NCBI GenBank assembly: GCA_028284225.1
Contig: JANQSD010000013.1
Span: 200,422-264,421, forward strand
DNA from: Arenicellales bacterium
GTDB lineage: Bacteria > Pseudomonadota > Gammaproteobacteria > Arenicellales > JAHEKD01
Direction: 5' to 3'
Length of the DNA: 64,000 nucleotides
Shown here piece by piece: positions 7,679 to 53,264 of this stretch. Every line of letters begins with the position of its first letter. Position 1 is the stretch's first letter. A program made the position numbers and the translations under genes. The notes under the pieces were generated by a model, which saw nothing but the letters and a program-made list of their open reading frames with translations, ran no database searches and was not told the DNA's origin.

Positions 7679-8248
7679 CTAATTCTGAACTTCTTTATAC
7701 CTAAAGCAACTGGTCAAATGATCATTAATCAAACCTGTAGCCTGTAAGTAAGAATAAACAATTGTCGGCCCAACGAATCTAAAACCGATTTTTTTCAAAT
7801 CCTTGGAGATCTGCTCAGATAGTTTTGTGGTAGCCGGTACTTGTTTGGCTGAGCGCCATTTATTTACGATTGGTTTGCCGTCGACGTATTCCCAAATGAA
7901 ATTATTAAATGAACCATGTTTAGCCTGGGTTTCTAAAAAGCATTTTGCATTTGTTACAGCTGCGTTGACTTTCAGGCGATTACGAACGATTCCAGGATTG
8001 TTGAGCAGGATTTCGATTTGCTTTTCTTTAAATTTGGAGACTTTTACAGGGTCAAAATTCCTGAATGCCTTACGATAATTATCGCGCTTTTGCAAAATCG
8101 TATGCCAGCTCAACCCAGCCTGAGCGCCTTCCAGTATTAAAAACTCAAAATGAATACGATCATTATGAACCGGCAGTCCCCACTCTTTGTCATGATAGTC
8201 AATTTCTAATTCCGAAAACGTGGCCCAGCCACAGCGCTTTACGTTCAT
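7679..8248 (-). CDS. tag: DNA-3-methyladenine glycosylase I
   Basis: MNVKRCGWATFSELEIDYHDKEWGLPVHNDRIHFEFLILEGAQAGLSWHTILQKR. Confidence 0.95.
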   Translation of the reverse strand: MNVKRCGWATFSELEIDYHDKEWGLPVHNDRIHFEFLILEGAQAGLSWHTILQKRDNYRKAFRNFDPVKVSKFKEKQIEILLNNPGIVRNRLKVNAAVTNAKCFLETQAKHGSFNNFIWEYVDGKPIVNKWRSAKQVPATTKLSEQISKDLKKIGFRFVGPTIVYSYLQATGLINDHLTSCFRYKEVQN

Positions 8249-8277: not shown

Positions 8278-8421
8278 TAGAATCTATCTCAAAATACCTG
8301 CGCTAGTTGATACTTCGTTAAAAACTCGCTCAAAATGCTCATTTACGACTAGTAAACTGCGCTTTTTCGCTCGTTTTTGCCTTGTCTGAACTACACTCGG
8401 CTAATTTTGAGATAGATTCTA
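8278..8421. repeat. palindromic element with terminal inverted repeats (copy 2)
   Basis: Perfect 18-bp TIR TAGAATCTATCTCAAAAT (8278-8295) / ATTTTGAGATAGATTCTA (8404-8421); core homologous to the element at 52372. Confidence 0.88.
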
Positions 8422-8496: not shown

Positions 8497-9369
8497 ATGT
8501 TAAGAATCGGTTTATTTTTAGCAACAAATCTAGCCATTGTTGCCGTATTAAGTGTCTCCATGCGTTTGCTGGGTATTGAACCATACCTTCAGGCAAATGG
8601 CCTGAATTACACATCTTTGCTGATCTTCGCTGCAGGATTCGGCATGATCGGCAGCTTTGTTTCACTGGCCATGTCTAAATTTACGGCTAAAAAACTCATG
8701 GGGGTCAGAGTTATCGAAACACCTTCATCAGACGAAGAGCGCTGGTTGATGCTCACCGTTCAGCGTCAGGCTGAACAAGCCGGAATCGGTATGCCGGAAG
8801 TAGGCATCTTTGAAACACCTCAGATGAATGCGTTTGCCACTGGCATGAAGAAAAACGACGCACTAGTCGCAGTCAGCCGTGGCTTGCTGCAAGGTATGAG
8901 CCGTGATGAGGCCGAAGCTGTGCTGGGCCACGAAGTTGCTCACATCGCAAACGGAGACATGGTTACCATGGCTCTGATTCAAGGCGTGGTGAACACGTTT
9001 GTCATTTTCTTCGCTCGAATAATTGGCAATATCGTTGACAGAGTCATTTTCAAGAATGAAGACGGCCATGGTATCGGCTTTTTCATTGCCACCATAGTTT
9101 CAGAGATTGTGCTGGGTATTCTTGCCAGTACCATCGTTATGTGGTTCTCGCGCCGGCGTGAGTTCGTTGCGGACGCAGGCGGTGCAGAACTGTCAAGTAA
9201 AGAAAACATGATTGGTGCATTAGAACGACTGAAAGCAGGTACTCAAGAAGATTTACCTGATCAACTGGCTGCTTTCGGCATCAATGGTGGAAAACCCTCA
9301 GGTATAAAAGCCTTGTTTATGTCTCATCCTCCTCTGGAAGACCGTATCGAAGCACTACGTAGTAGTTGA
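8497..9369 (+). CDS. htpX: membrane zinc metalloprotease HtpX
   Basis: HEVAHIANGDM zinc motif, N-terminal TM segments, 'SFVSLAMSKFTAKKLMGVRVI'. Confidence 0.97.
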   Translation: MLRIGLFLATNLAIVAVLSVSMRLLGIEPYLQANGLNYTSLLIFAAGFGMIGSFVSLAMSKFTAKKLMGVRVIETPSSDEERWLMLTVQRQAEQAGIGMPEVGIFETPQMNAFATGMKKNDALVAVSRGLLQGMSRDEAEAVLGHEVAHIANGDMVTMALIQGVVNTFVIFFARIIGNIVDRVIFKNEDGHGIGFFIATIVSEIVLGILASTIVMWFSRRREFVADAGGAELSSKENMIGALERLKAGTQEDLPDQLAAFGINGGKPSGIKALFMSHPPLEDRIEALRSS

Positions 9370-51368: not shown

Positions 51369-52388
51369 ATGCGTGATTATCTTGCCACCCATCTCCCGCA
51401 AATTTGGCAGGATAAAACACATCCTGTCAGTAAATTACTTTTCCCACTAAGCTTAATCTACGGTTTAGCGATTTCTATACGTCAAAAACTGTACAGCACA
51501 GGCATATTTAAACGTTCATCCGTCAGCGTGCCTGTGATTGTGGTTGGTAATATCACCGTTGGAGGCACTGGTAAAACACCTTTGGTCATATGGCTGGCTA
51601 ACTATTTACAGCAACGCAACTGGAATGTTGGAATCATCAGCCGGGGCTATGGCGGTAGTTCACCGCAGTGGCCGGTTGATGTGACCTTGTTAGAAAAACC
51701 GGAAATAGTCGGTGATGAAGCTGTATTACTTAGGCATAAATTAGATCAGCCACTTGCTGTTTCGCCTAATCGGCTCGATTCAGCACAATTGTTAATCGAT
51801 AAATACAATATCGATATCATCATTAGTGATGACGGTTTACAGCATCTGGCATTAAAACGGGATTTGGAAATCATTGTCATCGATGCAGATCGTAAATTCG
51901 GCAATGGCCGTTTACTACCCAGCGGGCCATTACGACAAACGTCCGAATCTACCTCGCAGGACGCAATAAAAATTTACAGCGGCAATAAAAACCTGGATCA
52001 GTTCGAATTCAATATGCAATTCAAACCCACCCGATTTTGTAAGGTAAACGCTGCGGATCAATCACAGCAGATTGATTATTTTGAAAACATGGATGTAAAT
52101 GCCGTTGCAGGAATAGGGAATCCGGAAAAATTCTTTAATACACTCAAATCGCTAAACATCAAGGCAAATACCAAAGTTTTTCCCGACCATCATGTTTTTC
52201 AATCCGGTGACCTTATTTTTAACGACAATAAGCCCATTCTTATGACTGAAAAGGATGCAGTAAAATGCAGGGAATTTACTTTACCGAATGCCTGGTACCT
52301 GGAAATCGAAGCCCAACCCAATCAAACATTCATTAACAAATTACAACGATCCTTAGCTGAAATTACCGACCATGAGACCTCAGCATAA
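51369..52388 (+). CDS. lpxK: tetraacyldisaccharide 4'-kinase
   Basis: 'VPVIVVGNITVGGTGKTPLVIWLA'; 'ISRGYGG'; 'IISDDGLQHLALKRDLEI'. Confidence 0.97.
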   Translation: MRDYLATHLPQIWQDKTHPVSKLLFPLSLIYGLAISIRQKLYSTGIFKRSSVSVPVIVVGNITVGGTGKTPLVIWLANYLQQRNWNVGIISRGYGGSSPQWPVDVTLLEKPEIVGDEAVLLRHKLDQPLAVSPNRLDSAQLLIDKYNIDIIISDDGLQHLALKRDLEIIVIDADRKFGNGRLLPSGPLRQTSESTSQDAIKIYSGNKNLDQFEFNMQFKPTRFCKVNAADQSQQIDYFENMDVNAVAGIGNPEKFFNTLKSLNIKANTKVFPDHHVFQSGDLIFNDNKPILMTEKDAVKCREFTLPNAWYLEIEAQPNQTFINKLQRSLAEITDHETSA

Positions 52389-52510
52389 CGTCATGAACGC
52401 AGAAAAGACGAGGCAAAAATGAACGAAAAAGCGCAGTTTATTGGAATAAATGAACATTTTGAGCGACATTAACGACGTATTTTCAAGTGTGAGTTATACT
52501 GAGGTCTCAT
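52372..52510. repeat. palindromic element with terminal inverted repeats (copy 3)
   Basis: ATGAGACCTCAGCATAAC (52372-52389) versus reverse complement of 52493-52510 ATGAGACCTCAGTATAAC: 17/18; core homologous to reverse complement of 8278-8421. Confidence 0.88.
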
Positions 52511-52511
52511 C

Positions 52512-53264
52512 ATGAATAATAAATTTGTCGTCATCATCCCGGCCCGATACGCCTCCACACGACTACCCGGCAAACCCTTGAAAGTAATCGGCGACAGGAC
52601 ATTAATACAGCATGTCTGCCAACGGGCTGGTGAAAGTGCTGCGGAAGATGTCATTGTTGCGACCGATGATAAACGTATATTTGACCATGTCATTGAATCC
52701 GGTTATAAAGCCGTCATAACATCCGAACAATGCCAGTCCGGCACAGACCGTATCGCTGAGGCGGCGAATGCTCTGGAACTCGGTGATGACGTTATTATTG
52801 TCAATCTTCAAGGTGACGAACCGTTTATGCCTGCCGAAGTTATCAACCAAATAGCGAACAGCCTGGCCGAAAACACACAGGCAGCGATGAGCACCGGATG
52901 CGAATTATTAAATAGCCCGGATGATTATATCAATCCTGATATTGTTAAAGTTGTACGCGACAAAAACGACATAGCCCTTTATTTCAGTCGTTCCTATATT
53001 CCTTTTTGCCGTGAAAATTTGAGTCAAAACAATGTTTATAAACATCTGGGTATTTATGCTTACACGGCAGCTTACGTAAAGCAATTCGCCTCGTTGAGCC
53101 CGTGTGAGCTTGAATTAACCGAAAAACTTGAGCAACTTCGGGCGCTTTGGCAAGGCGATAAAATAATCGTTAGTGAAGTTAAACAAGCAACTGGAATTGG
53201 CATAGATACACCCGAAGATCTTGAACTGGCCAGGAACAATTATGTACAACACTATTCAAACTAA
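52512..53264 (+). CDS. kdsB: 3-deoxy-manno-octulosonate cytidylyltransferase
   Basis: 'FVVIIPARYASTRLPGKPLKVIGDRTLIQHV'. Confidence 0.97.
   Translation: MNNKFVVIIPARYASTRLPGKPLKVIGDRTLIQHVCQRAGESAAEDVIVATDDKRIFDHVIESGYKAVITSEQCQSGTDRIAEAANALELGDDVIIVNLQGDEPFMPAEVINQIANSLAENTQAAMSTGCELLNSPDDYINPDIVKVVRDKNDIALYFSRSYIPFCRENLSQNNVYKHLGIYAYTAAYVKQFASLSPCELELTEKLEQLRALWQGDKIIVSEVKQATGIGIDTPEDLELARNNYVQHYSN

Follow-up and report, generated by a model that had tools for sequence, protein, structure and literature searches.

Two short elements in the window, by which we mean the whole 64,000-nt stretch analysed, carry the same interior between terminal inverted repeats (TIRs) of unrelated sequence. 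We consider it likely that this interior is a folded module which travels as the passenger of one transposase system after another; the interior would be long-lived, the ends would be exchanged and the fold would probably act in cis in mobilisation. Both elements would be miniature inverted-repeat transposable elements (MITEs) of one structural superfamily, apparently undescribed as judged against Rfam 15 and the open-access literature. Each subfamily would have the TIRs of one particular transposase, of the IS5 family where identified, and would be mobilised in trans by that transposase. The interior, some 110 bp in length, would be a module folding into a long imperfect hairpin whose internal loops are conserved. 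Over time it would have been re-housed between ends belonging to different insertion sequences (ISs), with recombination or gene conversion among resident elements as the probable mechanism. The coordinates are collected in Table 1.

Table 1. The two elements of the window, their parts and their neighbouring genes.
Feature	Position	Strand	Remarks
Subfamily A element, 144 bp	8278..8421	-	core reads on - strand
tag (DNA-3-methyladenine glycosylase I), neighbour of A	7679-8248	-	
htpX, neighbour of A	8497-9369	+	
TIR A arm 1	8278..8295	+	outer TA is a probable target duplication
TIR A arm 2	8404..8421	-	
Shared core of element A	8310..8387	-	conserved loops AAGGC/AACGC and GCGCAG/TGAGC; inner stem TTTAC/GTAAA
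Subfamily B element, 139 bp	52372..52510	+	
lpxK, neighbour of B	51369-52388		
kdsB, neighbour of B	52512-53264		
TIR B arm 1	52372..52389	+	
TIR B arm 2	52493..52510	-	
Shared core of element B	52406..52480	+	homologue of 8310-8387; inner stem TTTAT/ATAAA

Element A is bounded by a perfect 18-bp TIR, TAGAATCTATCTCAAAAT, at both ends, and element B by ATGAGACCTCAGCATAAC and ATGAGACCTCAGTATAAC, which match at 17 of 18 positions; the TIRs of A and B are unrelated in sequence. The reverse complement of A aligns with B at 82% identity over 78 bp (E ~2e-15, in a search within the window only), and the inner stems of the two cores differ by a compensatory change. An earlier note on this DNA had described the two as MITE-like, with cores that are homologous and arms that match within an element but are unrelated between them, and had considered one transposase to be insufficient for both; the TIR comparison and the 78-bp alignment confirm the description, and the second point stands as well. 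Both elements fold better than dinucleotide shuffles, with z values of -6.1 (A) and -4.3 (B) and none of 200 shuffles as good, and neither holds an open reading frame (ORF) of 80 aa or more. The lpxK frame ends within TIR B, its last residues and stop codon being derived from the element.

A genome search for further copies of the core, which the earlier note had proposed, returned dozens. With either A or B as the query, about 40 places were found in the home genome (G000), and the core links both sets. Subfamily A has about 35 copies and subfamily B about 7. The full copies form two clean sets, of 142-147 bp for A (with an additional form of ~102 bp) and 139-143 bp for B, and their alignment gives one TIR consensus per subfamily, that of TIR A being TAGAACCTATCTCAAAAT. 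At up to 3 mismatches TIR A occurs 81 times in this genome versus 4 for the reversed control, and TIR B 15 times versus 8, a TIR-only count so weak that the copy alignment is the better evidence for B. The A copies have TA on either flank, usually with Y before and R after, and no clear target duplication was seen for B elements in the home genome. None of the 26 full copies lies inside an ORF as called by a simple heuristic. The model R1 gave 49 matches in the home genome at E up to 1, among which L272, L273 and L274 have still other ends. At L272 (300-569) two adjoining core-bearing elements with different ends are present. The ~102 bp form (for example L023, L026 and L028) looks as if it had lost, by deletion, the stretch between the core copy and the TIR copy of CATTTTGAG, and a 63-bp element with TIR A (L071, 1456-1518) is almost without an interior.

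The window elements have the properties of bacterial MITEs: they are short, carry TIRs, lack a transposase gene and are multicopy, dispersed and intergenic. Target duplications and empty sites are observed as well, in the form of TA in A, 4-bp duplications in genome G190 and two empty B sites, and known autonomous ISs have ends that match TIR A or TIR2 of G190 in sequence. A MITE usually originates by internal deletion of an autonomous IS, which some definitions do not require; derivation of the interior by deletion from a partner IS was not seen here, as R1 found no core in any of the ISs examined.

From the initial two-copy comparison the earlier note had suggested that arms differ between copies and may be acquired or templated at each target site. 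The arms do differ between subfamilies, but not among the copies of one subfamily. Capture or copying of the arms from each target is contradicted by the single genome-wide TIR consensus per subfamily, by empty sites and by an IS with the same ends; that first comparison alone speaks for it, and we regard it as practically ruled out. The empty sites come from joined-flank queries of five sites in G299, which is 75% complete and the one further genome sampled from the genus, and consist of two sites, both of subfamily B. The lpxK-kdsB site of the window and the site of L032 were matched at 65-75% identity with a spacing that leaves no room for an element, and the remaining three gave no match in G299. 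At the lpxK-kdsB site, where the sequence was read, neither arm is present in G299 in the stretch that separates the stop of lpxK from the start of kdsB.

TIR A is the exact end of an 834-bp IS5-family IS in G299 (L282), which has GAACCTATCTCAAAATT at both ends and encodes a 265-aa transposase (NF033580); a related IS of 838 bp (L297) occurs in the same order. No IS partner was found for TIR B. Judging from the shared ends, the matching IS would move the element in trans. The home genome has no PF01609 match, whereas 7 of the 13 genomes searched have one. The absence of the core from the ISs examined, and of a PF01609 transposase from present-day G000, speaks against this reading, and movement in this host today is at most a possibility.

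The interior recurs in records of Pseudomonadota, Desulfobacterales and Bacteroidales, in elements mostly of 120-150 bp. The exact core pattern is present at at least 114 loci in GTDB genomes, many in metagenome-assembled genomes, and among the matches listed are records named Pseudomonas, Nitrosomonas, Marinobacter, Halomonas, Thiotrichales, Desulfobacterales and Bacteroidaceae/Alistipes. Of the 115 pattern matches listed, 26 score without a TIR, several being cut by a contig end within the element and others having imperfect arms; a few of the remainder owe their TIR score to chance repeats, and arms are hence not demonstrated for every match. The pattern includes part of the innermost helix, so that conservation there reflects the selection of hits; the other stems and the loops lie outside it. 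Single-linkage clustering of 109 elements, at 12 or more of 16 end bases matching, gave 24 TIR clusters, a rough count since 14 of them are singletons and the choice of 80% as threshold is arbitrary. With R1 the interior was found, at E up to 0.01, in 83 of 299 Pseudomonadota genomes, 51 of the 239 high-quality ones and 33 of 154 genera. In a plasmid collection 16 records match, and the listed matches overlie no annotated feature. A phage search gave no match and a viral collection two, by which a phage origin was ruled out. No Rfam 15 family lay over the elements of six loci up to E = 1; a match to the t44 sRNA (L225, 471-563) shares a contig stretch with an element without overlapping it. 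A description of the superfamily was not found in the open-access literature, where the papers matching the core string dealt with other topics. Members of ~118-123 bp (L256, L346 and L348-L350) have long near-perfect arms that enclose the retained AAGGC/AACGC and inner loop.

The interior is a long imperfect hairpin in which the internal loops are conserved and the stems vary freely yet stay complementary. Across 46 sequences 90.8% of cells are paired, and the covariation is 0.457 versus 0.147 for shuffled and 0.057-0.080 for slid alignments. In the 75 sequences of set A3, found and aligned by the model and with counts that therefore lean towards structure, 89.2% are paired and the covariation is 0.698 versus 0.189 (shuffled) and 0.081-0.126 (slid). 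Double changes were seen at 35 of 48 pairs in the former set and 44 of 47 in the latter. The suggestion of the earlier note that the arms co-vary under a hairpin constraint is thus borne out, and the constraint reaches the inner stems across phyla.

In genome G190 the same interior lies between either of two kinds of ends. Counted as single ends, TIR1 (CAGGCCGTTGAAAAA) is present 96 times and TIR2 (GGGCACCTCTAAAAAC) 61 times, which corresponds to about 45 TIR1 and 28 TIR2 elements. A 1201-bp IS with TIR2 in this genome encodes a 334-aa IS5 transposase of subfamily NF033581, different from the NF033580 of TIR A. The flanks of 40 elements were read. Identical 4-mers, mostly CTAG/TTAG, flank 13 of 22 TIR1 elements, where permutation gives 5.2; for TIR2 elements the count is 11 of 18, where permutation gives 1.2, and the 4-mers vary in sequence. 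Target choice is not the same for the two kinds. A pair of 290-bp elements separated by 1.6 kb has a common interior and inserted modules with different TIRs, and the switch point lies between AAAAAC and GTAGGCGAGG. The likeness of interiors (SequenceMatcher ratio) is 0.865 between TIR types versus 0.891 within them. The interior tree needs one change of TIR type (1-3 in bootstrap), and three TIR1 copies sit among TIR2 interiors on a supported branch. TIR type thus tracks the interior clade with few changes, indicating that end swapping is rare. This tracking, and the likeness of several TIR types (purine-rich, often ending AAAA), would fit ordinary MITEs from one ancestral IS5-type element, with TIRs that drifted along with their transposases and an interior conserved by recency only. 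Such plain inheritance is, however, very unlikely in our judgement: the interior is conserved across phyla where the TIRs are not, its stems covary, two TIR types go with different transposase subfamilies and the core is absent from the ISs examined. No replication-strand bias was seen in G190 when orientations and coordinates were inspected with the origin assumed at coordinate 0.

Many G190 copies contain extra inserted hairpins, at six insertion sites that by eye all lie in unpaired regions or loops. As 35% of model positions are unpaired, six of six has p ~0.002, for sites that were read by eye and may not be independent. Some of the extra modules at loop positions (L258-L270, L366-L397) occur under both TIR types. 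The complementarity of the arms might also arise with no selection on folding, if template switching or gene conversion homogenised them. In subfamily A, arm deviations common to both arms of a copy number 6 against 1.9 expected (p = 0.0055), the window copy being one of those concerned, and the wobble counts of the TIRs are roughly symmetric; both speak for this process. It leaves unexplained why non-complementary loops are kept across phyla while the flanking stems change, and why insertions are confined to loops. We hold it improbable as the whole explanation; arm homogenisation may operate alongside selection. As individual copies seem dispensable, we reason that selection on propagating copies is the simplest account of why the loops and the pairing persist, and the folded interior would then probably be a cis-acting part of mobilisation. 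The fold, or a bend, may bring the two element ends together. A benefit to the host from the interior may also exist.

We infer a role of the fold either in DNA bending or synapsis or as RNA. Of 50 elements that are under 80% alike (SequenceMatcher ratio), 33 have at least three A/T tracts, and in these the phasing of the tracts peaks sharply at 10.5 bp, with a mean R squared of 0.753 versus 0.228. A wedge model predicts 52 elements to be more curved than their dinucleotide shuffles, with a mean z of -3.95 versus -0.38 for random 144-mers of the window, and window A and B are predicted to be strongly curved (z of -9.7 and -5.6). Through shared ancestry the elements are far from independent in both measures, and an R of 0.96 has a chance of 0.004 for one mirror-symmetric six-tract arrangement; a pair-preserving shuffle breaks A-runs and is an unfair null. 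The same model predicts weak or no curvature, and a nearly straight path, for several GC-rich and divergent members, by which curvature as a universal feature of the family was ruled out.

Alternatively, read-through transcripts might fold into a rod on whose loops a widespread RNA-binding protein or nuclease acts, cutting the cost of insertion or regulating neighbours, an idea also put forward for NEMIS and ERIC. Conserved loops with covarying stems would suit this, and helix 3 in the pattern set has G-T over A-C 16 to 2, as opposed to 26 to 19 in the TIR; the strand bias of wobbles is suggestive for helix 3 only, in the unbiased set, and overall it is weak. The model-found set is biased towards G-T. 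With genes called by a simple ORF heuristic, the core is co-directional with the upstream gene in 23:7 cases in the home genome (p = 0.005) and 15:6 in AT-rich pattern loci, but no orientation bias is seen in the GC-rich pattern set (24:21) or the model-found set (10:13), and it is significant for the home genome only. Several such tests of DNA versus RNA were tried, and single p-values are therefore to be discounted. The phasing of A-tracts, moreover, suits duplex DNA in many members, and we consider a function as RNA doubtful. A further possibility, which we put forward tentatively and consider less likely than not, is that the folded interior is a selfish unit in itself: an ancient non-coding replicator spread across several bacterial phyla, re-housed in locally active transposase ends, with loops that a common host factor would read in folded or bent form during mobilisation.

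REPINs and REPs are marked by a Y1 (RAYT) transposase and by GTAG/CGTC-tagged palindromes. They resemble the present family in being folding, multicopy and non-autonomous, but are palindromes of 20-40 bp, whereas 18-bp TIRs, target duplications and IS5-family partners are found here (PMC3116915, PMC3733652). The IS5-type ends, as read from sequence, and the target duplications argue against an assignment to REPINs or REPs. MITEPsy1 of Pseudomonas syringae is a 100-nt IS5-type MITE with a 4-nt duplication at CTAG or YTAA, whose movement was demonstrated by an entrapment assay and for which similar sequences were noted in other genera (PMC3189936). Its TIR resembles one TIR type here (GGAAGGTCTGAAAAAGCC); its interior is not described as a folded module common to TIR types, and it is by description only that we set it apart (PMC3189936). 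NEMIS/Correia, ERIC and similar elements are also of ~100-200 bp with TIRs, TA ends and transcripts with long stem-loops; in the part of that source available to us they have one TIR per family within a lineage, and a covarying interior under many TIRs is not reported there (PMC2229807). QMITE1 and QMITE2 of Coxiella burnetii are likewise multicopy MITEs with strongly folding transcripts, and some QMITEs give sRNAs, but they differ, by description, in size and duplication, and QMITE1 has no orthologues in other genomes according to the paper (PMC5896051). The Tn3-derived inverted-repeat miniature elements (TIMEs), going by the accessible part of their description, are non-autonomous, use a transposase in trans and can form mosaics, with Tn3-type ends in contrast to the IS5-type ends identified here (PMC4133298).

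The new part is the interior common to many TIR types; MITEs as such are already known. They are commonly viewed as decayed ISs with disposable interiors. Here the interior outlives the ends, its structure being kept across phyla as the transposase ends change. For annotators, a model becomes available for an apparently uncatalogued repeat superfamily present in 83 of the 299 Pseudomonadota genomes sampled. The family makes it possible to test whether fold or curvature acts in cis in DDE transposition, or whether MITEs have a role as RNA.
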